Origin: Cinnamomum chago
Lineage: Eukaryota > Streptophyta > Magnoliopsida > Laurales > Lauraceae
DNA length: 64,000 nucleotides
NCBI GenBank assembly: GCA_038049695.1
Contig: CP142460.1
Coordinates: 25,762,001-25,826,000 of the forward strand
Direction: 5' to 3'
Made by a program: the position numbers and the translations under genes. The notes below the pieces were generated by a model. It saw only the letters and a program-made list of their open reading frames with translations. It did no database searches and was not told the DNA's origin. Shown here piece by piece: positions 8,501 to 64,000 of this stretch (within the stretch, counting starts at the first letter, position 1; each line of letters begins with the position of its first letter).

Positions 8501-11500
8501 TGGGCATCCCATCTTCTAGTGGGAAGATATGAAGCGGCGACTCAAGCAAAATTTTCTTCCTTTTGACTATATTGATTCCCTGCATAAAGGATACCTTAGT
8601 CTGCAACAAGGTGCCTATTCGTTGGATGAGTATACCAATTTGTTTCAAGAATATATTGTGCGCTACAATCTGCGGGCGAATGATGGACTCATTATCAACA
8701 AATATACAGAAGGCTTACGTCCTGATATTCGGCAATGGATTTCTATGTTTGATTTCAATGATATCAACGAAGCCTTATTGTAAAGCCCGCAAAGCATAGC
8801 ATGAAATCCAATTGAGGAGGCGGGAAAGGTCCTAAGCCGGGGAGTTTTCCAATTGAGGGCCACAATATACAACTCCCAATAACGCCTAACAGTCGATTAA
8901 TTGACCGAGGCCACCACAGGCATTGCAAAAGCCGCCCCAAGGGGTACAACAACGGCCACCTCCTCCCCAAAATCAACGGCAACAAGCACCACAAAATGAT
9001 CCTCATGCGCGAGGACGTGATGACAAAAGGAAGTGATCTGCTATACCTACCAGCATAAATGACATTATGCTAGATAATGTCCTCATAGGAATCTCTATGC
9101 AGATGATGAAGCCGAAGACAACGGAGAGTATGATGAGCACAATGAAATGGAAAAACCGGCAGACACTCAAAGCCTTTGCCTTGAGGAATTTCCTGCTGAT
9201 GGTGTACCACTCGTATATCTTGAGTGCCATCTCCTAATTACTGAAGATCAATAGGAGGAGCAGGATTATAATCATGCACCTATTTTTTGCTCTCGAGTTC
9301 ATTGCATGGGCAAAACTTGCAATATGATTGTTGATGGAGGTAGTGCTATGAATGTTATTGCTAAAGAGGCTGTGGAAAAGCTAAAACTACCTACTACAAA
9401 GCATCCAAGACCATACAAAATAGCATGGGTAAATGATTCAACTATTCCGGTTGACAAGCAGTGCATAGTTCCTTTCAAACGGGGTTCTTATGAAGATACA
9501 ATCAAATGTGATGTTATACCAATGAAAGTTACACATATACTCTTTGGTCGCCCATGGCTAAAGAAGTTGAAGGTTGTCACAGATAATGACACAAACACCC
9601 ATACTTTCATGTGGAAAGGTAATAAGACCCTGTTATGGCCACTGTCACCCCAGCATGCTGCTAAGACCCCAAAAGAGGTGGTCACTCCTCAGATGTTAAC
9701 CATGAGTAAATTTGAATACGAAAGTAGAGATCAGAATCTAATGTATGCCTTGGTTATCCGCCAAGTGATAGATGATTCTCCACATGCGTCCATTCCGGTA
9801 GAAGTCAAACAACTCCTGCAACACTTCTCCAATCTTATTCAGGATGACCTGCCAAATAATCTTCCACCTATGAGGGACATACAACATGCCATTGATCTAG
9901 TCCCTGGCTCTACACTTCTGAATCTACCTGCATATCGGATGAGTACCGCAGTGCACGCCGAACTCAAGAAACAAGTGGATGCCCTGTTACAAAAGGGTAC
10001 ATTCGGGAAAGTCTCAGTCCCTGCGGGGTACCGGCCCTTCTTACTCCTAAGAAGGACAGTAGTTGGCGCATGTGTATCGATAGTCAAGCTATCAACAAGA
10101 TCACGGTAGAATACAGGTTTCCTATTCCTCGATTAGATGATATGCTTGCTATGATGAAAGGTTCCACCATCTTTTCCAAGATTGATCTGCGAAGTGGTTA
10201 CCATTAGTTTCGTATCCGTCCAGGTAGTGGAAAACAATGTTCAAAACCAGAGATGGTCTTTATGAATGGTTAATCATGCCATTCGGGTTAACAAATGCTC
10301 CCAATACCTTCATGCGGGTTATGACCCATCTGTTGCTGCCTTATATCGGGAAATCCGTTGTTTACTTCGACGACATCCTTATTTATCGCAAAACCAGGGG
10401 GAGCGTCTCACTCATCTCCACACTATTTGCCATCTCCTTCGTCGTGAAAGTTTCTACATCAATCTCTAGAAGTGCACCTTCATGAGCAGTTCCGTTATAT
10501 TATTGGGATTCATCATATCGACGGAAGGCATCACAATGGATCCAGAGAAAGTCAAAGCAATTCTGGATTGGCCACTCCCAACCACAGTAATTGAAGTTAG
10601 GAATTTTCATGGACTTGCTACCTTCTATAGGAGATTCATCAGGAATTTCAGCGGTATCATTGCTCCTATTACAAAGTGTTTATAGAAGGGCAAGTTCAAA
10701 TGGACCAATGCCGCGACTCGAGCTTTTGCGCAGCTCAAATAAAAAATCACAGAAGCTCCTGTCCTCCGCCTTCCAGATTTTGACAAGGTGCTCGAAGTTG
10801 CTTGCGATGCGACTATAGGAGATTCATCAGGAATTTCAGCGGTATCACTGCTCCTATTACAGAGTGTTTATAGAAGGGCAAGTTCAAATGGACCAATGCC
10901 GCGACTCGAGCTTTTGCGCTGCTCAAACAAAAAATCACAGAAGCTCCTGTCCTCCGCCTTCCAGATTTTGACAAGGTGCTCGAAGTTGCTTGCGATGCGT
11001 CAAGTGTTAGCATTGGAAGTGTCCTTAGCCAAGAGGAACATCAAATTGCTTTCCACATTGAGAAACTTTCAGATTCAAAGCGCAGGTACTCTCCTTATGC
11101 CTTGAAGTTCTATGCTTTTGTTCAGTCACTTTGCCATTGGAGGCATTACTTGATAGGTAGAGAATTTGTGCTTTACTTTGATCATGAGTCTCTCAAGCAT
11201 CTTCATTCACAACGTAAAATGGGCGTTAATTTTGCCAAATGGGTGATTATATTCAGAAGTTTACCTTTACCATCTACCATAAATCTGGCAAGGAAAATGT
11301 GATAGCGGATGCTCTTAGTTGTAGGAAACATCTCCTGACCACCATGGCTATTTCTGTATCGGGTTTTGAGCAAATCAAGGGGGAATATGCGACAGACAAA
11401 GACTTCGGTACCATCTATAAAGAGATCCTTCAGGGTGAGCATCTCAAGCATCCATACTTTAGCATTCATGTTGGATATTTATTCTATGGTAGTCGCCTTT

Positions 11501-13852
11501 GTTTACCAAACACATCTATCCGCGAGCATGTCATTAGGGAACTCCATTCCGGCAGATGCAGCGGACATTTGGGTCATGATAAGACCTCCGCGCTTGTTGG
11601 AGATAGATATTATTGGCCACACATGACACCCTATGTTTCTCGTATCTGTGAGCGGTGTCGTACTTGCCAGTTGACCAAAGGAAGCAAGGAGAATGCGGGA
11701 TTGTATCAGCCGTTGCCAGTTCCCCAGGACTTCCAAAGACCATTGTGTCCGACAGGGATACAAAGTTCATTAGCTACTTCTGGAAGACATTGTGGGGCAT
11801 GTCCAAGACGAAGCTGCAATTTTCTACTGCCCATCATCCACAAACTGATGGTCAGACTGAAGTCGTCAACTGTAACCTTGGAAATCTGCTACTTTGTTTA
11901 GTGCGCGACCATCGTACTACATGGGATCAGGTTCTGCCTATGGCTGAGTTCGCTTATAATAACGCAGTCAACCGGTCCATAGGAATTTCTCCTTTTGAAG
12001 TAGTCACTGGCACAAGACCACGTCTCCTAGTTGATCTTGTTCCCCTTCTAGTAGAAGCAAGACCAAGTGTTGATGCGGAAAGTTTTATTCGCCATATGCA
12101 GCAGGTTCATGATGAAGTTCGACGACATATTTCAGCAAGCAATGATTCATATAAAGAACATGCAGATAAGCGTCGTCGTTTCGTTCAGTTTGCGGAGGGA
12201 GATATGGTTATGCTTTGTAATCGTCCAGAGCGTCTTCCATCGGGCTCCAATAAAAGCTTCACCCTCGCAACTCTAGCCTGTTCAAGATTCTCAAGAAAAT
12301 TGGTCCTAATGCATGTGTGTTGGATATGCCGGCAGATCTTGGCCTGCATGCTACCTTCAACGTTGAAGATCTCACACTCTACAAGGGCCATGACCATGAC
12401 AGTCCGTCTGAAGAAGATGAGATTCATCTACCCCTTTCCCCAGCCCTTGCGGATACAATTGTTGATGTGCTTGGTGATCAGCTTGTTTCAACTCGCTAAG
12501 GAGGGCATTAGAAGTTTCTTGTTCGCTGGAAGAATCGTCCTCTCTTGGATGCCACATGGATTACAGCTACATATTTCCAACATCTTAATCCCCATCTTTA
12601 CGGGAGATATCAGGCCATTTACTCGCCGGAATCGAGTTTTTCCAAGTCGGGGAGAGTTGATGCAGGCCGATCAAAGGTCAAGGCCCGCAAGCCCTGATGA
12701 CCCGCTTGATGTGGTCCACATGATCTCTAATTAGAGACCCCTATCTTAGTTTAGATATTTCTAATTTAATCAAGTTGCTTAGTATATTATTTCCTAAATT
12801 CTAATCTTGATTAGTAGTTTATTGTTTTAGAAAGTCTTAGTTATTATAGAACCATCTTCTTACTCTATATATAGAGTAATATGCTATTGTAATGCTATGA
12901 TATATTTTCTAATAAGAGTTTAGTTATTCTCATATGTGAGTTCTGGGTACTTTTTCTAAGGATCTTATGGTTTTTGAGTCTTAGGGCTCGATCTCACTGT
13001 TAGAGGTGTAGATCTTCACATCAATACTCTAACATGCACTTGACTGTAAGAGGCCTTATATAAGGCTCTAATCATCGTGAAACCTATGATGCACAGATAC
13101 GTCATGGATACGGCAAGGACACGCCATAGACATGGCAGGGACATGGATTTTACGCTTTAAAAGTGTTATATCGGATACGATATGACACAATACGCTGCCT
13201 ATTTTGAAGTATCTGTGCATCATAGCGTGAAACCCTTAAACTTACTTAAATTAAGTCTTGATGCAAATAGAAGTCACAAACAATCTTTCAAAGTCAATTG
13301 TCATGAAAATCTGTAAAGAAATAATCAAAATAGAATTTTTTTTTTCGTACTGGAGTCGTCCCAGACGACTTGGGGCAAATCTGGTAGTAAGTGAAAATTC
13401 TCCTCGATATTGTAATGATGCTGATGGATTTAATTTTCAATTGTGTTCTTTTCGCATTGGTTATTGCCTAGCTTAGTCCAAGGAATCAAAAGAATGCATT
13501 ATGGATATGAAATAGTGTGGATTGATAGCCATGATCTTTTAATTGCTCATCTGTTCAAACGGTGTACAGTTACATTTACTCATACACTGTACTGGTATAT
13601 GATCATTTTGGTATGAAAGTTCTGTTACTCTGTAAAGGATATTTAGCTATGTAGCAATTTCATTCTACTTTGCAATTTTGGGATTCCTCAACACCTAAAT
13701 TGGGCCTGTTAACAGATGTGGAGATGGCTGATGGTGGAACTGCAGTAGCTGGATCATTCCTAAAACCTGTTGGTGGTGTAGGGAAGAAATCGAAAAAGAA
13801 ATTGAAGCTGAATAAGCGCCATGGTAAGAAGATCAGGAAAAAGAGCATTTAG
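5527..13852 (+). CDS. DUF2423 / LLP-homolog small basic nucleolar protein (two exons)
   Basis: Exon 1 is 5527-5722 and exon 2 is 13716-13852, giving a 110-residue protein. The donor is G|GTACC at 5723 and the acceptor is TTAACAG at 13715. The intron is phase 1, and splicing restores D-V-E-M-A-D. The N-terminus [19 protein letters not shown] is the hallmark of the LLP/YBL028C family (DUF2423). The lysine-rich C-terminus ([20 protein letters not shown]) is the matching second conserved block and a likely nucleolar targeting signal. In between are a Thr-rich run and an acidic VEMADGG word. Animal and yeast relatives are nucleolar and linked to ribosome assembly; the plant role is inferred. The frame is intact, so the gene is probably active despite an intron of 7,993 bp filled by mobile elements. 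Confidence 0.85.
6013..6206. repeat. 97-bp tandem duplication in the intron
   Basis: Two nearly identical 97-bp copies start CTTCCTGTTACACAC at 6013 and 6110. They lie within the LLP-type gene's intron and have no coding content. Confidence 0.85.
6762..7127 (+). repeat. Left LTR of the Ty3 element
   Basis: Starts TGATGCAGGCCG. The end is placed by the right copy and by the ATACT target repeat. The primer site begins two bases beyond. A TATA-like stretch (TCTATATCTAGAG) lies in the middle. Confidence 0.85.
12658..13023 (+). repeat. Right LTR of the Ty3 element
   Basis: A 366-bp copy of the left LTR, about 94-95% identical, ending CACATCA directly before the ATACT target repeat. Confidence 0.85.
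13084..13225. mobile_element. 142-bp hAT-type MITE
   Basis: It has perfect 17-bp terminal inverted repeats (CTATGATGCACAGATAC / GTATCTGTGCATCATAG). They are flanked by perfect 8-bp direct repeats CGTGAAAC (13076-13083 and 13226-13233). The interior is GGCA/CATGG-rich and non-coding. It sits in the LLP-type intron, 60 bp from the Ty3 element. Confidence 0.9.
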
Positions 13853-53500: not shown

Positions 53501-54187
53501 GGGATGAGGCAAGTGCAGAGTTAAAATGTCAAAATAAATTAGTAAGGGTCAAAATCAATTGATGAGGTTGATTTCTCAATTGAAACACAACGGCTTTCAT
53601 ATATATAAATTTCGTACAAATCCCTTAATTTTTTAGTAAAAATAAGAGGGTTGTTTTGTCATTTAGTGTCATAGAGAGGTAGTTTTTGAACTTTGTGGTA
53701 AAAAAGAAGAGGTCCCTTTAGTCTTTTTGTACTTTCTATTTTAACATCCTCTTCTTTTCTTCTCTTGATTTGGCTATTTATTTTACTCCATTGTATAGAT
53801 AATTTCACCAAACAGCCCAAGGTTTGTTTGTTTGCATTAGATTACATAGGAATTAAATAAATAGAAATTTGAGGTCTAGTGAGCCTTGCAAAGGACTTTC
53901 AAAGAGGTGAGGAATGAAAGGAAATAAGGTGAGATATAAATGCGACCTTGACCATATTGAATTACTAGGGTGATTATGTTATAATTATTGGGCATACATA
54001 CAAGGGCGAACAGGGACCTCGGACCCACTATAAAAGTTATCCACTGAAGGCTTGCTTCTAGATTTTTTTCATAAAATAAAATTATCAATTGCAGTTTACA
54101 TATTTTAAGTTTCTTTTATTTTTAGGAAATAGTCTCCCAATCTTTTTTAAAAAAAAATAATGCTTCTAATAAAAAAATTGATTAATT
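50504..54187. other. No gene seen (3.7 kb)
   Basis: AT-rich with a (TG)n tract at 50517-50534. A 23-base word (TTCAGAGCATGCTTGCATG and onward) repeats at 52795 and 52842. A tRNA-like B box (ATTCAAATCTC) lies near 52540. No exons were recognised. Confidence 0.45.
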
Positions 54188-54469
54188 AGCGAAAGGTCCC
54201 TATAATGGAATGTTTCCAGCCTCCAGTCCAGGCGGAATCTTTTTAAAGGCTCTGGTCCAAGCAGTTAGGATGTTTGCAGCCCAAGGTCCCTATATACACA
54301 CGGTTTCAATTTTTAAGACTAATTTGCCCCTGTAACCGTCACAGCATGTAGTGGAGTGGTCCCCAACGTGTCACGATTATTTAGCCACGATTTAAGTGCA
54401 TAATCGTGGAAGATATTACTGATATGCCCAAGTAATACAGTGCAGATCTCGTTTTTTGATTCTCAACCT

Positions 54470-55665
54470 GCAATCGCTTATGATCTTGAATCTGAATATA
54501 GAAACTTAACGAGAGAGAAGATAGATCTGTAGATTCATTGTTTGCGAAGCAAATTGCAGATCAAACTTTTGGTAGGAGTTCTATTGTAATTGGATTATAG
54601 TCTCGTAGATTGATTGGCTGGGAAACAGTTCATTGGCTTGGAAGCAGAAACCAGATCCAAACTTTGGGAAGTGATTCATCTTTTTTGAGGTAAGCGATTT
54701 TTTCTATCTTACAGCAGAGATTATGCAGTGTTTGTTATTTGAATGTGCAGATCTATATATATCTGATACTCGTGCTCAGTTATATTCTTATTGGTTTTTA
54801 GCTGTGTAGATTGATTTAATGGATAGCAGATTTCAGATCTAACTTTTGTGAAGCAGTTCTATCTTTTATATGGACGTGAAGTTTTTAATTTTTCTTTTCG
54901 AGTTTTGATAGTTAGATTTCATTAGTTTTGTTGGTGATGAAGTATTCAATTTGTATCAGCTCAGTTGATGTAGAACTGCTTTAATGGTCATGCATTTAGA
55001 TTAGCTAGAGCCTGACTTATTTACCAGTCTTGTTTCAGAGCTGAATTGTTTAAGAAGTAATGTAATCAAAGATATTTGACTTTTAGCATGAAATTTATCT
55101 GACTATTAATCAGACAAATCTTAGTTCGTGTAATTTTATCTGAGTTCTATACAAAATATCTGATTTCTGTATTGAATTTATCTGGTTCACTTTTGAAAAT
55201 CCATATAATTGCAGGTAAATTTGGCAAAACTCAGATAGATTTGTAGAGATCATGTTTTTTTTTCTGCATTCTGCATAGTTTTTACAATGACAATGACCAG
55301 TTTTGTTAGCAATGAACAATTCAATCTGTATGACTTCTGTTGACGTAGAATTGCTTTTTATTATATGTAATTCGAGGTAATCATGTATTTAGATTTGTTA
55401 GATGCTAAATTTATCCGAGTTATATACAACTTATCTGTGTTATGTACAATTTATCTATGTTCTATACAATTTATCTGTGTTATGTATAATTTATCTGAGT
55501 TATGTATTGAATTCATCTAAGCTCACTTCTGAAAATCCAGATAATTCCACAGAGTTTTGCACATTATCAGATAGATTTGCAGAGATCATGTTCTTTTTTT
55601 GCATTATGCATACTTTTTACAATGATAATGATCATTTATATCCATTGAATCTTGTTGTTTTATAG
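54470..55665 (+). other. Probable 5' UTR exon and intron of the MULE transposase
   Basis: A donor-like GAG|GTAAGC lies at about 54689 and an acceptor TTTTATAG directly before the ATG at 55666. The intron carries two diverged copies of a segment of about 370 bp (54930-55300 and 55302-55640). It also carries many TTATCTG words. Confidence 0.5.
55085..55520 (-). repeat. CAGATAA-type repeat array A
   Basis: Units of 20-21 bp built on TTATCTG(A/T)GTT, best ordered at 55405-55515, where about six follow in a row. They read TTATCTG on the + strand, opposite to the other arrays. Confidence 0.8.
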
Positions 55666-57938
55666 ATGTCACAGCCGTTATTGCTTCTCTGTAAGTATGA
55701 CATGTTTACGGCCGTTATTCATTTGAGTCGGGGTATGAGTTATGATGGTTTGATGCGTCAAGTTTGTAACAAGTGGAGAAATCTTACAGTGAACATGGTT
55801 TGTTTGACTTGTGCGTTGCCTGGCCACCCAAAGTGCTTGCTGGACAGTGATTCGGATCTACTAAGCTTATCCATGCTGGCTTCTTCAATGGGATTGGGGA
55901 CAGTTGATGTATTTGTATCAGAATCGCAGGAATCGGAGGACGATGATCAAGAGGAAAATGGTAGTGATTTAGCTGAAGATGCCCTACCATTAGTGGGGTA
56001 CGAGGATACAGATATAGAGACAGATCTTCTTCCACAGTTTTGTACCCACAAGGAGAAGATGTTGCTGTCTTCCTGCTAGGCAAGTGGTATTAGAGATGTG
56101 GGGCAGAGGTTTGAGGGCGGTGTTGGGGAGTTTAGAAGTGTCTTGTGCAGATATTCAAATGAGGTTGGGTTTGAATTTGTATATGTGAAAAATGATAAGG
56201 TGAGGGTGACAGCTGAATGCTCTCGCAGTCATTCAATGGGATGCAAATGGCGTGTTCATGCATCTATTGAAAAGTCTAGTGGCCATTTTTGTATCAGGAC
56301 ATTAAACAATGAGCATACATGCGGTGCAGCAGTTCGAACGTCAAAGAACAGCCGTATGAATTCCGAGACAGTTACAGATTTAATAGTGGATCATATCCGT
56401 GAGAAGCCGCTCACCAGACCCATTGATATCGTGCACCACTTTAAGGCGAATTATGGACTTACCATTGCATATCATCATGCATGGTGGGGTGTGGAAAGGG
56501 CTAGAAATAAGCTGTATGGTGATTCGTTGCTATTTTTGGACCATCTTCGCTGGTATATTAAGGTGGCGGAGGAGGTAAATCCAATAAGTCTCTTTGTGCC
56601 AGATTATGACCAATCAACTATGTGTTTCAAGCGTCTCTTTGTGTCGTTCTATGCTTCAATTGCTGGTTTTAATCATATTCGTCCTTTGTTATATCTGGAC
56701 GGTACTTTCTTAAAGGGCAGATACAAGAGAAACCTATTGGCAGCAACTAGGAAGAATGAGAATCAAGGTAAGTCGTAATGCTGTTTTTTCTGATATTATT
56801 GACCCATTTATTTATTTTTACACTAATGATCAGCATGTTTTGATTTTCTGAATAGTATCTGAAATATAAAACTTTGTTAATTCATGTGACAGGTTTGTTC
56901 CCCCTTGCTTTTGCGGTCGTGGACTCAGAGACGGAGGACAATTGGACATGGTTTCTGTAGAATTTAAGGAAAGTTATAATGTCAGATCGCACTATTACTT
57001 TTATTTCCGACAGAAATCCAGGTCTGATAGAGGCTGTCTCAACGGTATTTCATTTTGCCCATCATGCGTATTGCCTCCAACACCTTAAGGCAAATTTGAG
57101 GGACAAGTTGTCTGGTGATTACACTAATGCATTTAGAGAGAGAATGGTTATGATGCTGCGGGAATGTGCATATGCCCTAACTATCCCTGCCTTCCATGCA
57201 AAGCTGCAGTCGTTGAGGCGTGAAGGTGGTTCCAATGTAGACAAATTTCTCTGTGGATTGCCTCATGAAAGATGGAGCAATGCATATTTTAAGGGTCAGC
57301 GGTACGGTGAGATGTGTTCGAATGCTGCTGAGTCTTTCAACTCATGGACTAGAGAAGTTCGCCATCTTCCAATTACAAAGATGGTTGACACAATAAGGGT
57401 TTAAATAATGGAGCAGATGACTAGTAGGAAGGAAGTTTCCAGCAGATGGAAGTCAGTCATCTGCCCGGACATGGATAAGAGGCTTGATGCTGCTATCCGG
57501 CTTGGAAGGACGTGAACAGTCAGTCATTCGAGTGAAACTGTTTACGATGTGCATTCTTACCCGTCAATGACCGTTGGCATTTTTAATCACATATGTTCCT
57601 GTTATCAGTGGCAGATCAATGGTTTCCCCTGCGCCCATGCTTGTGCGGCGATTCAAAAGAGTGGAAAGGACTTGAGTGTCTTTGTTGATCATTATTTTCA
57701 CACTCATACATATAGGGTTTCGTATGAAGAACAGATTTTCCCAATTCCAACCGTGGGAATACCAGAGACAAAAGGCGCCGAAGCCGTTATTCTCCCACCT
57801 GTTGTTAAACGACCAACTGGCAGGCCGAAAAAAAAGAGGATCTTGTCAAAATGGGAGATCACACGGCAGATAAAATGTGGGCGATGTGGTCGGATTGGCA
57901 GCCACAATAAGAAATCGTGCAAGGAGCCTATTCTTTGA
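55666..57938 (+). pseudogene. MuDR-like transposase (MULE), nonsense-broken
   Basis: Two exons, 55666-56767 and 56893-57938, are joined by a 125-bp phase-1 intron (G|GTAAGT, ACAG|GT) and give about 715 codons. In order: an N-terminal PB1-like stretch, an acidic linker, a MuDR DNA-binding region (56200-56330, C and H ligands in CKWRVHA and NEHTC), the DDE core, a SWIM zinc finger and a zinc knuckle. The DDE residues lie in LYLDGTFLKGRY near 56700, ISDRNPGL near 57010 and AAESFNSW near 57325. The SWIM finger is CSCYQ...FPCAH at 57595-57640 and the knuckle is CGRCGRIGSHNKKSC near 57890. The frame is continuous except for stops TAG 56077-56079, TAG 56958-56960, TAA 57402-57404 and TGA 57513-57515. 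Catalytic residues are kept. It would act in the nucleus at the element's ends. Confidence 0.9.
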
Positions 57939-58204
57939 CATTTCATTGAATTAGATATTGAATTTAGGTTAGGAGTAATATTGTTGATACATCTGATGTA
58001 ATTCTGATTAGTGAATAAAAAGGTCAAATTGACATTCCCTTTAATGTTGATTAATGTGCTCTTGCTTTTATAAGTAATTACTTCCAAATGTGTCTAAATC
58101 ATTTAGTCATTGTTCAAAATTGATATTGAAATTGCATTAGAGCTGAGATTATCTGGAATCATTAGCTAGACAGATCAATCACATTACCCAGCTAAATATG
58201 TAGC

Positions 58205-58575
58205 TGAATTCAGATAATTTCAATCTAGATTCAGATAACTTCACTCATGAGTCAGATAATTTGATTCAGAAGTTAGATAATTTCATTCATAACTCAGATA
58301 ACTTCAGCCAGTAGTCAGATAATTTCATTCATGAGTCAGATAATTTGCTTCAGAACTCAGATAATTTCATCTATAAGTAAGATAATTTCACCCATGACTC
58401 AGATAATTTGATTCAGAAGTCAGATAATATCATCCAAAGTCATATAATTTGATTCAGAAGTCAGATAAAATGATACAGAAGTCAGATAATTTCAATTAGA
58501 ACCTATATAATTTCATCCAAAACTTAGATGATCTCAGTCAGAACTCAGATAATTTCTATCAGAAGTCAGCTAAAA
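58205..58575 (+). repeat. 21-bp CAGATAA array B, about 17 units
   Basis: An almost exact 21-base period, with units such as CAGATAATTTCATTCATGAG and one more base. It lies between the convergent 3' ends of the transposase and the Ulp1-like gene. Units differ by a few bases each. Confidence 0.93.
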
Positions 58576-58843
58576 TTTCACCAGAAATTAGAAAAAAAGA
58601 TTGCATAGTGCTGATGTACGAAGACATTGACAGAAATAATTCTATTTACATTCATTCACAAATGTGAGAATTGAATTGATAGAAATGTTTATCCAACCTT
58701 CATGTGAACCAAAAAAATACATTCACAAGTCTGTTGAACGTTCACTTTTCATATATAGAGATTTACATTAAAATGTATTGACTTTTGTTTGACATCAATT
58801 TGATTGAAAACAACTTGTTTGTCTCATTACTGTAGTTTTTTCG

Positions 58844-61800
58844 TCAGTTTTCGAAGTCATCAGTAGCAGCTTGTTGCCTGGCTTGGTAGTTTTCAACTGA
58901 CCAGCTGCAGTGCTTGTCGTTTAGGAACTTGCTTACTATCTCTGCCCTTAATCCGTCAATGACACGCTGTGGCAGCTTCGAAGCAATTACTTGTTTATGA
59001 GTAAGTTGCTTCATAAGATAACAAACGACCACTCCGCAATCAACACTGAAACAAGACATGCTATTGTTAGTCGATTGTAAATAAGTCACTGTCAAGTAAA
59101 TTGAATTACTGTAGTTGCACAATGATACTTACGAGCCCATTTTTTGTTGTGGGGCGTCTTCGACGCTTATCAATGGAGCTCCATATGGCTGTGTCTCCTC
59201 AACATTGACATAATTGTAGTTCTCCACATACTATTTCTGCAGAATAAAAAACATTCCATATTTTGGGTCAGTTTTGATTATTCTAACGGAGACCATCGTA
59301 TAAATAATGACCAAGTAAGTAAGACATACCAGAATTCGTGCATCCTCAAAGTAATGATCGACTGTTTTAGGTGATCTTGGTCGTAAGGAGTTGTATTGTA
59401 GCCAATCTCCTTCTTTCTTATCCAGCACCAACAATGTCCAGTGGAAGGGTTCAGCATCCTTCCTTTTTCCATTTGAATTCATCGGAAAAAGCACGAATCT
59501 GTGTTCTGCAGTTCTGCTTGGGGAGATCTGAGGGTGCAGTATCTTTTCCCTCATTTTCGACGATGAGGAAGTAACAAATTTCTACATTAAGACATGTTTA
59601 GTAACTGTTTATTATATATAAAAATAAAGTAAATGATGACACAGTCAACACAGTTATTGTCTTTTACCCAGCATAAACTTATTACAAAGTACAATTTCTC
59701 ACGAGGCAGCATTTTTTTGTGTTGGACAATTGTGAGTTGCTGTTGGATTTTACCCTGTTCTCTATCTAGCAACTCAGCATAGCAGTCAATAACCTGTTCA
59801 ATTTGAGACACATAATGTTAAGCATATAGTGTGAACACGACCATATTATGTTTGTGTAAAATGTAGGAATATTTTGTCAATGTGTCTGTGTTGTGATGCT
59901 TACAGTGCTTGACATTTCTGCTCTGCTGAGAACTGTGATTATGTCCTCATAAGATACAGTTTGTATGCCCTCACCTCCCCAAACGAGCGCCCTGCAAATG
60001 CAATTGCACAAATGGCCCAATTAGTCTACATTTTCATTAGTGTTTCTTAAATTCAACAGTTGTGTTGCTTAGTTGCATAGGTATGTGACTTACGCATTGC
60101 CCTCAGCTTCATAAATCTCCTTTAGCTTTTCTACGTCAGATGCATTCATAAGCTTAGTGACCGCATTTTTTGGGAGTGTGAAGGGGGCAGTTGCTGGGTT
60201 CAGTTTCCTTGTCGCTGTTCTTTTTTTAATTCGTTTCACCATGGAGGACTGTTTCACCTCCTTAATTGGCTTTGATGGTGCATCAGATGGCATGATCTGA
60301 TCAATATTTCAATTATAAAAATATAGATTAATCAAATTAGAATTTGTGGAAGGACAGATAACTTTAATATAACATCAGATAAATTTGCTGATAGTGTGAT
60401 AAAATCATACAGAAGTCAGATAAATTTAAATAGAATTGTTAAAAGTTCATACAGAAGTCAGATAAATTTAATGAAAAGTTTTATAAGTTGATACAGAAGT
60501 CAGATAAATTTAATATAAGATCAGATAAATTGTTAGAAAGTCAGATAAAATGACACCAGAAGTCAGATAAATTTGATAGATATGCAAAACATGAATTCAA
60601 TGCAAACAAAAATTATCTAAACAAGCATGGTTGTGTAACTAAATTACCTCAGGCACATTTTCTCCAACATTACGATCAGTTGCAGCCTCCTTCGCTGCTT
60701 TCTCTGCCATTCTAAACCCTTTCTGTAGTGTATTAGTTTTTCTTGTAGGCTCGAAGATATCATCAAGAGTCTTCCTAGCCCATTGCAATCCTTTCTCTGT
60801 ATAATCAATTGTCATTTCCCTCAAGAGCTGCTGCAGTTTGAAGTTGTTTGATTCCAGATTAATCAACTTTTTCTTCAAGCCCCTTACCTCATTTTCTACA
60901 TTTGTAGCTCTCGAGGACTGTACATCTGAGACCCTGATGGTGTGTTTCAGCTGCTCTTTGAGGGAGCTGACCATTCGAGTTGACTCCTCTAAAGTCTGAT
61001 TTTTGTCCACACACTGTGTTTCAAGCGAAGTCTTCTCCTTTGTCAATTGCTCAACCAACAATAGAGCATCGTCCCTTTCTCTTAGCAAACTGGTGATCAT
61101 TTGTTCAGTTTTAAGCCGCTGTTTTTTTATGATGTTGTTTTCGGCCGATGTCTTTTCAAGTTCAATAGCCATCCGTTGGATCTGCGCTTGTAATTCTGTC
61201 TTCTCCTTAGTGAGTTGGATGACTAATGGATTTGCCATGTCATGCTCCTCAGTAAGATTTTTTATCTCGCTGTTTTTGGGAGTTTGTGATTGTTGTCTTG
61301 GACTAGGCACTGTATCACCAGCTTCTGGTACCGATCCAGAGTGTGCTTCAGAAGGCTCTTCATATACTGTGTTGCTAGTGCTGCCAATTATGTCAGCTAA
61401 GATGTTTGCAACCAGCAGATCTGTTTGTAGGGACGTATGTTCATAGCCCACTATCTCTGCACCAAACGCTATAGACTATGCTGCCACACCAGGGAAATTT
61501 GTTTCTTCACTGTTACTATTTTGCAGCTGCTCTTCCAACTCGGATACAACCAATGTGTTTGTCAGTATGTCTGTATCTGGTTTGGTGGCTTCAATCATTT
61601 TGTTCTGTTCTCCCTGCTCTCCTTCTTCCAATTCATGCTCGTTTTTTTCATTTCCATCCTCTAGATCGTCTTCTTGATCCACATTTTCTCCTTCTACCTC
61701 TACTGCTATGTCTCCCCCATCTCCTTGCTTTTCGTGTGTTTCGCCATCATCATGTTCATATTCTTCCGATGTGTCTTCTCCATCACTGTTTTCTTTTTCT

Positions 61801-62968
61801 GTAACTTGTTGCTCTCCTTCTATCTCCATCACGGCCCCCTTGTCACAAGCGCCACTGTCCAACAAGGACTGTAATCGTTGCACTTTAAGCAGTGTGCTAT
61901 CTAATTCGTCACCGAGGACCTGCATTTGATACCAATGTTACACAGAACATGTTAGATTAAAAACTAAGATAAAATTAGATAGTGAAAATTGTGAAAAATA
62001 CCTCAGTAGCTAGTAGTGAATGAAGGGGTCTTTTCCTAAGTGTCATACTCACTGCCCTTAGATTCCACTTTAGTATTCGTGGGAAATGCACCGAATCATT
62101 TGGTGTGATAATCGTCGTATGCTCACACAACCAATACTGTTACAAATTCATAAAACATATATGTATGTCAATAATTATTTGTATATTGAACTTCAAATTT
62201 GTAAATTTGTAGTTGTATATCATACCGGTAATGCAATAAGGCACCCAATTACTCTATCAGAACCACGGCTTCTGGTGTGTATCGACTCCATGAGAAATTT
62301 AGAAATCTCTTCTGCCCAGGCATAGTGCTTCATATCCATGTAGTTTTCAACATAGCCCACATATGCCCATCCTATTGTGTTTCTGTGGGTTGCAAAAAAG
62401 AGTACGACAAGGATATACAGGCACAGTAGCCTAGCAACATCAGCAATGTCAGTTTCTGATTCTCCATTCAATGCTAGAAGGAGCTGTTGCTTTATTTGTG
62501 GAGCCGACACCCTTGAACAGCCATGGAATCTTCTAGATATGAATTCAGTTGTTTTCCTTTTTGAATACTTCAGATCAAGCACTCTTGTTCCATTTAGTAT
62601 GCCGAATATTAGCGATATGTCATTTGCAGTGAATGGCACGTACGACCTTCCTAGTCTGAACTGCCTTCTTTGGGTGTTGTATGCATCAAGGATCACCACA
62701 ATGTCCTTGTCATACTTTCTGCACATCTGTTCAGAGATTTTGTTCTCCAACATGCATTCTATCAGGCTCCAGAATGGAGTCTTTCTTAATTCAACTCTGT
62801 GTACTTCAGTGACCATCTGTTTGATGCTTTGGACTAGTGACACAGTTGAGACCAAATTCGATCTGAACTGGTAATGAGTGTTAGTCTTTTCAGCATTTTT
62901 GTCTTTACTGAGTTCCTTTTTCTTTGATGGTTTCTCTTCTACCCTTTTTCTCTTGTTATGTTTTATTC
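58844..62968 (-). pseudogene. Ulp1-like (C48) cysteine protease gene of the MULE, nine exons visible
   Basis: Exons on the minus strand: 62968-62226, 62136-62002, 61919-60648, 60296-60094, 59991-59904, 59793-59668, 59581-59330, 59236-59133 and 59045-58844. All have GT/AG borders and phases that agree, giving about 1,040 codons; the first exon or exons lie further right. In order: a lysine-rich start (HNKRKRVEEKPSKKK); a plant-mobile/DUF1985-like region (DIVVILDAYNTQ, FTANDISLIFGI); an acidic stretch near 61600-61800; a coiled coil near 60800-61250; a basic linker; and a C-terminal protease domain with HWTLLVLD, WLQYNSL and SVDCGVVVCYL. The catalytic His and Cys are kept. The position of the usual Asp (YDSL) is Asn. 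In-frame TAG codons lie at 61478-61476 and 59233-59231. Relatives are SUMO-type or deneddylase-like peptidases; the substrate is unknown. Confidence 0.85.
60345..60580 (+). repeat. CAGATAA array C, in an intron
   Basis: About nine units built on CAGAAGTCAGATAAATTT lie in the intron 60297-60647 of the Ulp1-like gene. Spacing is less regular than in array B. Confidence 0.85.
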
Positions 62969-62984
62969 CTGCATATAATAAAAT

Positions 62985-63990
62985 AACTCAGATTCATATC
63001 ACCAAAAGACTAAAACAACTGAGTACAAAACAGAGATAAATTGCACAAGACACAGATAAATTTATTATAAACTCAGATAAATTAAAGACATATACAAAAG
63101 GTTTGTTGAATTTTCATTCCAAAGTCACACACTCTTGCTTTTAATCTCAGATAAAGTCAAGAGACATTGATTCAACATCACAAAGAACACAGATAAATTG
63201 CACAAGACACAGATAAATTTATCTTAAACTCAGAAAAACTTGATATAAAGTCAGATAAATTTGATTTAAACTCAGATAAATTCATGAAACAGACGAAAGA
63301 TTTGTTGAATTTTCATTCCAAAGTCACACTCTCTTGCTTTTAATCTCAGATAAAGTCAAGAGACATTGATTCAACATTACACAGAACACAGATAAATTGC
63401 ACAAGACACTGATAAATTTATCTTAAACTCAGATAAAGTTGATATAAAGTCAGATAAATTTGATATAAACTCAGATAAACTCAGATAAAAAATGATAAGT
63501 TTGGTATAAAACTCAGATAAAAACATTAGCAACTGGTTACATACTGGAATAAACTCATATATTGGTGTCATTCAATCACAAACCCAATTAAAATCAGATA
63601 AACTTAATTTGAAGGCAGTAGAAACTCACTTAAATACTGAGATAAATTAAGGCCAATTCATCAAGAACAGTTAAATGCATCACAGGGACACATACATTCA
63701 TTATAATTTGTAGTGATTTTCATGCCAAACTCAGATTCATTTTCATTCCAAGCAAGCAATATAAGATAAAGAGAGTAGTAATTGAATTAAATTCAACAAG
63801 AACTCAGAATAAAGCCAATAGACATTGATTGAAGTTTGTTAAGAAAACAGATAAATTCAATATAAATTTGTATTGAGTAAAGTAACTCAGATCCATATCA
63901 TCAAAGATTAAGATAAGTAAATACAGAACACAACTAAATTGCACAAGACACAGATAAATTTATCTTAAATTCATATATTTTTTTGAAAAA
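62985..63990 (+). repeat. CAGATAA array D with 200-bp higher-order duplication
   Basis: More than 25 CAGATAA words, many 21 bases apart. A segment of about 200 bp (TTTGTTGAATTTTCATTCC..., 63100 and 63300) is duplicated in tandem. It lies upstream of the visible Ulp1-like exons and runs to the window edge. Confidence 0.88.
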
Positions 63991-64000
63991 ATCTAAGATA

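Follow-up and report, generated by a model that had tools for sequence, protein, structure and literature searches.

Kaonashi of Arabidopsis, a KI-MULE with KIU genes, and the ULP-bearing Mutator-like elements (MULEs) of melon, rice and grapevine share one architecture: a Mutator transposase accompanied by a reverse-oriented Ulp1-like (C48) gene, with no long terminal inverted repeat (TIR) described for KI-MULEs (PMC2528002). VANDAL elements offer a further point of comparison. VANC21 is described as binding tandem arrays of YAGTATTAY in the noncoding DNA of VANDAL21, including that of the VANC introns and that upstream of VANA (PMC5735166), and the targets of VANC6 are described as carrying other motifs (PMC5735166, PMC10398659). 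Moreover, some VANC genes contain Ulp1 (KIU), a capture dated near the monocot/eudicot split in a review (PMC13317346, citing Sasaki 2022). Here, we examine a MULE at the right-hand edge of a 64,000-nucleotide stretch of the Cinnamomum chago genome (contig CP142460.1, C10:25762001-25826000 in our notation; hereafter, the window), together with its copies in the 1.06 Gb (14 contigs) that were searched. We consider it moderately probable that this element is a VANDAL/KI-MULE-type DNA transposon with a VANC-like gene, whose protein reads arrays of the motif TCAGATAAWTT and lifts silencing.

The element extends from position 54179 to the window edge at 64000 and on to 64756 (10,578 bp in total, the last 756 bp lying past the right edge), and homology among copies stops at both points. 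An earlier reading of the window's letters alone (the sequence-only reading) had set the limits at 54188 and 64000; the rightward extension that it proposed recovered the right end as well as the first coding exon of the second gene. The left end reads (G)GATTAATTAGCGAAAGGTCCC and the right end, outside the window, ..GGGACCTCCGACCAAAGTCCCC, with 17 of 40 positions alike, comprising a common AGGTCCCT plus scattered bases—a short, imperfect stretch that may set the element apart from Kaonashi, described as having none. The 9-bp target-site duplication expected of MULEs was found in all three elements in which both ends were read: TTTCTTTTA in copy c27 and ATTAATTAA in copy c30 are perfect (9/9), and in the window copy the left TAAAAAAAT (54170..54178) is matched at eight of nine positions by TAAAAAAAA, directly after 64756.

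The transposase gene comprises two exons on the + strand, located at 55666..56767 (DBD_Tnp_Mut and the start of the MULE domain) and 56893..57938 (MULE domain and SWIM finger). When joined, with X put at the stops, and compared with Pfam profiles, these exons exceeded the cut-offs for MULE (2.1e-18), DBD_Tnp_Mut (1.5e-13) and SWIM (1.6e-6), in keeping with the MURA-type transposase of a Mutator-like element. The frame is interrupted by a stop at 56077 in exon 1 and by stops at 56958, 57402 and 57513 in exon 2, with zero indels of frameshift size. With these four stops and one or two in the second gene, the window copy is dead; the stops in both genes had been missed by the sequence-only reading. 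The transposase is free of stops and frameshift-size indels in 5 of 29 other copies.

The second gene, termed VANC-like here, lies on the - strand and converges with the transposase inside one element, as had been proposed from the window alone, giving the element the reverse-oriented C48 gene that characterizes KI-MULEs. The nine exons visible in the window likewise stand as proposed, with nine AG acceptors, eight GT donors and agreeing phases. The total, previously given as nine, is ten because an extra first exon with an ATG and a phase-1 GT donor lies beyond the window at 64183-64120; its ATG and donor are conserved in all seven covering copies (of nine, window included), with a stop inside the exon in one of the seven. 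Exon 2, the first visible one (62226..62968), encodes a region resembling the plant mobile domain (PMD) and DUF1985, and exon 4 (60648..61919) an acidic region followed by a coiled-coil-like one, with an in-frame TAG at 61476-61478. Exons 3 (62002..62136), 5 (60094..60296) and 6 (59904..59991) were placed by splice sites and phase. The C48 region begins in exon 7 (59668..59793) and continues through exon 8 (59330..59581; His codon 59443, and Asn codon 59392 replacing the catalytic Asp), exon 9 (59133..59236; two Gln codons, 59149 and 59146, near the Cys) and exon 10 (58844..59045; Cys codon 59038 and the stop codon), all on the - strand. Exon 9, the eighth visible, has an in-frame stop at its start unless an acceptor 6 nt downstream is used (start 59230); among the 30 copies compared at this acceptor, 19 had no letters there and two more were unaligned. 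In four of nine copies, every splice dinucleotide of these nine exons is intact; the other five have at least one altered or absent.

From N- to C-terminus, the encoded protein contains basic residues, a weak PMD/DUF1985 region, an acidic stretch and a coiled-coil-like stretch, both recognized by eye, and the C48 domain. The nine joined exons matched Peptidase_C48 at 1.8e-8 (34.9 bits, cut-off 20.7) over profile positions 3-204 of 217. The profile check suggested in the sequence-only reading thus placed C48 and MULE over the cut-off and DUF1985 below it, and the composite protein described there is borne out for its C48 half, the DUF1985/plant-mobile half being weak. The C48 Cys is present in all nine copies and the His in all eight covering copies; downstream of the transposase in the other copies, the Cys codon could be aligned in 26 of 29, with 25 of these retaining Cys and one having Tyr. 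No PDB entry matched the C48 half up to E 10 in a sequence search, and the DUF1985 profile gave 88 weak matches genome-wide, none over the cut-off, among 150 scored of 400 candidates. A single-sequence structure prediction of the PMD-like exon was discarded (pLDDT 36.5).

The repeats shared by both genes, already pointed out in the sequence-only reading, are arrays of TCAGATAAWTT, a motif counted 20 times in the window where 0.33 would be expected; the shorter CAGATAA occurs 51 times against 13.9. CAGATAA was found 45 times in the 5,311 nt of noncoding element DNA, once in the 5,267 nt of coding DNA, and five times in the window's first 54 kb. All nine copies show the same distribution (45-96 occurrences in noncoding DNA versus 0-2 in coding DNA plus short introns), with array length varying among them. 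Four arrays can be delineated: one upstream of the transposase (55092..55506, six CAGATAA on the - strand), and three on the + strand, of which the first lies between both genes (58210..58573, twelve) and the others within the VANC-like gene, in the intron that separates exons 4 and 5 (60355..60578, eight) and in the long first intron (63053..63957, seventeen). Motif orientation is almost uniform within each array and reversed between the two sides of the transposase. Among pairs no more than 70 bp apart, the spacing is 21 bp in 253 cases, 20 bp in 88 and 42 bp in 70. Motif sequence, density and helical periodicity reportedly decide VANC specificity, which a spacing of 20-21 bp would fit.

When 7-mers were counted without anchoring, the commonest was part of TCAGATAAWTT in all four array-bearing regions of each of three copies. 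The two-unit pattern TCAGATAAATTT-N9-TCAGATAA occurs 2,127 times genome-wide and, read backwards, not once, a total for the whole genome rather than for this family, with places listed for the first matches, on C1. The element carries what VANC systems are recognized by, namely short, family-specific motifs in tandem arrays within noncoding parts, and TCAGATAAWTT is a new candidate motif. As a control, seven of eight other MULE loci had no tandem array within 1.5 kb on either side of the match, a weak comparison because the stretches are short and four of the loci (L001, L005, L006 and L007) do have a convergent C48 gene, at a greater distance.

Copies of both genes are numerous and similar. 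Apart from the window itself, the best 40 of 275 transposase candidates were scored and are near full length at 94-96% identity, and the best 40 of 219 candidates for the PMD-like exon are at 93-98%. We read 30 transposase loci, the window included, and extended eight of the other 29; these eight were not blindly chosen, as homology downstream of the transposase had been seen beforehand. The second gene stands beside the transposase in all eight—a check for joint occurrence that the sequence-only reading had asked for, along with a comparison of ends, made here in c27 and c30. Copies c17 and c27 have large deletions inside the second gene, and c17 and c18 were not read as far as the right end.

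In the same nine copies, the VANC-like gene has a pairwise dN/dS of 0.41 and the transposase one of 0.38, the former dividing into 0.23 for the PMD-like exon, 0.63 for the acidic region, 0.51 for the coiled coil and 0.47 for C48. Counting variants separately by age, and omitting variants with two or three changed bases as well as codons covered in fewer than 60% of copies, the ratio of nonsynonymous to synonymous changes (N/S) among shared, older variants was 0.30 for the VANC-like gene (nine copies) and 0.37 for the transposase (30 copies), with singleton values of 0.55 and 0.70, respectively. The domain-wise ratios are based on few variants: the shared-variant N/S was 0.13 in the PMD-like exon, 0.59 in the acidic region and 0.63 in the coiled coil (not under its singleton value of 0.52), and for C48 the shared and singleton values were almost equal in the nine-copy count (0.49 and 0.54), the last C48 exons giving 0.48 and 0.86 across 30 copies. 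In older variants, the VANC-like gene is thus under purifying selection comparable to that on the transposase. This selection, and the presence of the gene in all eight extended copies, do not support plain cargo, the label given to it in the sequence-only reading; the C48 Cys codon alignable in most other copies points the same way.

The comparison with described systems can now be drawn more closely. Like VANDAL21 and VANDAL6, as these are described, the element combines a transposase with a second gene, has motif arrays inside that gene's introns as well as upstream of the transposase, and encodes a protein with a variable middle; unlike them, it uses TCAGATAAWTT rather than YAGTATTAY and has a C48 domain. 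A third gene, a further difference from VANDAL, was not noticed among the window's open reading frames. Relative to Kaonashi, the distinguishing features are the ten-exon gene, an N-terminus nearer to PMD than to DUF1985, and Asn at the catalytic Asp. The N-terminus weakly matches PMD proteins, i.e., MAIN/MAIL1 and those of PMD-bearing MULEs; in contrast to these, the window family joins a PMD-like region and C48 in one protein and has motif arrays. The gene pairing and its orientation are known from KI-MULEs (PMC2528002), as the sequence-only reading stated; the composite protein and the repeats that it called less usual both have a VANDAL/VANC counterpart (PMC5735166, PMC13317346). The domain details are unusual for a VANDAL/KI-MULE.

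On this basis, a sequence of events can be proposed. The MURA-like transposase would move the element, leaving the 9-bp duplications observed in its anatomy. The VANC-like protein is predicted, by analogy, to bind its own family's arrays at all the places where they occur, from the region upstream of the transposase through the intergenic stretch to the introns of its own gene; there, the 20-21 bp spacing would place sites on one face of the helix. Judging from Arabidopsis VANC, such binding would free members of the family, among them non-autonomous copies, from DNA methylation and silencing, and so allow the transposase to be expressed. More speculatively, the C48 domain may additionally remove SUMO or a similar modifier from silencing factors at the arrays.

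Several observations weigh against the proposal of a VANC-like anti-silencing factor. The PMD match of the window copy (0.0032) lies under the Pfam cut-off, as does the best one, from another copy (2.2e-5; 24.3 bits against 34.9), and DUF1985, the domain expected of VANC, scored 0.069 (13.6 bits against 35.1). C48 enzymes of the Ulp1 type use a His-Asp-Cys triad and an oxyanion Gln, usually six residues before the Cys. The complete set was not found here: the catalytic Asp position holds Asn in seven of eight covering copies and Tyr in one, so that protease activity is no more than putative, and two Gln residues lie 7 and 8 residues upstream of the Cys. In all nine copies, the VANC-like gene is interrupted by one or more stops or frameshifts. 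In addition, the motif core was no better conserved than the spacer between adjacent units, with the shift chosen on spacer columns alone (29 pairs in the window, 17 dropped; 420 in nine copies, 204 dropped; 7 in the non-autonomous element L052 described below, 5 dropped), a result that lends no support to selection acting specially on the core within the array; the unanchored 7-mer test is the better argument for the motif. Finally, C>T singletons per site (0.37 at CG, 0.38 at CHG and 0.22 at CHH, against 0.17, 0.15 and 0.11 for other singletons) weakly indicate past methylation of family copies, a signal weakened because singletons other than C>T are likewise commoner at CG and CHG.

Three other explanations have to be set against the same data. 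The arrays could be the transposase's own binding sites, comparable to the subterminal sites of CACTA elements or the MURA sites in TIRs, and serve for cutting or for MURA-driven hypomethylation, with the second gene as a MURB-like accessory factor that has another task. MURA and TnpA likewise reduce methylation of their own elements (PMC10398659), and L052 bears inverted arrays on both sides; most motifs, however, are intronic or intergenic, as much as kilobases away from the ends rather than beside the termini, and the corresponding arrays of VANDAL21 are described as bound by VANC (PMC5735166). We regard this explanation as unlikely. We give still less credence to the idea that the Ulp1-like gene is transduplicated cargo, a piece of the host copied passively, and the repeats functionless minisatellites. 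The lesions in every copy, the loose constraint on the acidic and coiled-coil regions and the outcome of the core-versus-spacer test would all agree with it, but it does not account for the purifying selection in shared variants, strongest in the PMD-like exon, nor for an exon structure retained fully in four of the nine copies, with some altered or absent sites in the others. In four separate noncoding regions, one and the same core ranks first, and arrays of different motifs occur in two other MULE families.

The arrays might also act as enhancers that drive both genes through host GATA-type transcription factors, whose site is WGATAR. The AGATAA within the core fits this site, and the transposase has an array upstream, the second gene one in its long first intron. 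Left unexplained are the TC that precedes that core and the WTT that follows it, the array that separates the 3' ends of both genes, the 20-21 bp spacing and the other motifs of other families, and we deem this explanation highly improbable.

Two of these other families bear on a wider version of the VANC-like interpretation. In a second MULE family, represented by L050:4101-9797 (C1:30450261-30460260) and L051, the transposase converges with a plant-mobile-domain gene; the L050 profile matches were 3.6e-26 for MULE and 9e-52 for PMD, with FAR1 (8e-5) and DUF1985 (0.00048) both below the cut-off. The motif GTTCGGA occurs 23 times in L050 and 16 times in L051 (10-kb loci), never in coding parts. 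L050 has three arrays of it, one upstream of each gene and one between them, at places corresponding to those of the window family's arrays; 22 of its 23 occurrences fall within or next to these arrays. CAGATAA is absent from L050 and L051, and GTTCGGA occurs 0-1 times in nine window-family elements. A paired, palindromic pattern of the second-family motif was found 925 times genome-wide and five times when read backwards. The second family is probably younger than the window family, its PMD exon having other copies at 98-99% identity (best 40 of 614 candidates scored). A profile comparison between its PMD and the PMD-like region of the VANC-like gene gave E 0.0015 and a probability of 17%, and a PDB sequence search with its PMD returned one match only, at E 0.85. 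The transposase-side frame of L050 also contains a stretch that we take to be OTU-like, for which the Pfam C65 match was at only 0.3.

A further locus, L053:1165-3736 (C5:19683001-19688000), has long inverted arrays of 397-bp tandem units between a convergent MULE and C48 gene (C48, 2e-6). It contains 25 TACTRAGGTT, a motif that neither the window family nor L050, L051 or L052 contains, and is weaker evidence because its units are 397 bp long and the motif was chosen by eye. Genome-wide, C48 seems much expanded, with 978 first-look candidates, of which 150 were scored. Among the best 150 of 3,015 MULE candidates and the best 150 of these 978, we found ten MULE-C48 pairs within 15 kb, all ten convergent, against a mean of 0.66 and a maximum of 5 in 1,000 trials of random placement.

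Taken together, two and perhaps three families allow a tentative proposal, one that we hold to be possible rather than probable: PMD/DUF1985 proteins would form one superfamily of sequence-specific anti-silencing factors, and several MULE families in this genome would each carry one, alone or joined to Ulp1, with its own motif arrays (TCAGATAAWTT, GTTCGGA, perhaps TACTRAGGTT) around or between convergent genes. Ikeda et al. 2017 speculated that MULE-captured PMD serves anti-silencing (PMC5418596). Among the titles and abstract openings of the best-ranked literature matches, no account joined MULE-borne PMD genes with family-specific motif arrays, although this leaves their absence unproven. 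If the superfamily proposal were true, VANC would belong, as one of several branches, to a wider system extending to FAR1/Jittery-like MULEs, and the transposon's weapon would be related to the host proteins MAIN/MAIL1. The VANC work that we found concerns Arabidopsis; the present genome adds a large family for which a protein, a motif and non-autonomous targets can be named as candidates. Moreover, two families with different motifs raise the question of whether each protein reads its own motif only, and with it how transposons evolve private keys from host silencing.

The element L052:1717-8328 (C1:30097501-30107500), taken from one listed place of the two-unit pattern, is a non-autonomous MULE-like element with inverted TCAGATAAATTT arrays. 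It has 113-nt inverted repeats (80%) and 12 motifs, distributed over both sides, and gave no tblastn match to the transposase or the VANC-like gene. It also holds what look like captured host gene fragments, perhaps from a SEUSS-like gene. Its arrays are only partly made of the motif because the top unanchored 7-mers are TAAATTT/ATAAATT, not CAGATAA.

Elsewhere in the window, LTR-retrotransposon remnants with aspartyl protease and integrase zinc-binding matches lie at 9255-12734, and a reverse-transcriptase-like fragment at 1430-2266 (RVT_3, 8.8e-11; zf-RVT below the cut-off). An open frame of 371 amino acids at 36859-37971 matches B3 at 7.4e-23 and, below the cut-off, AP2 at 4.6e-6; it is perhaps a RAV-like host gene.

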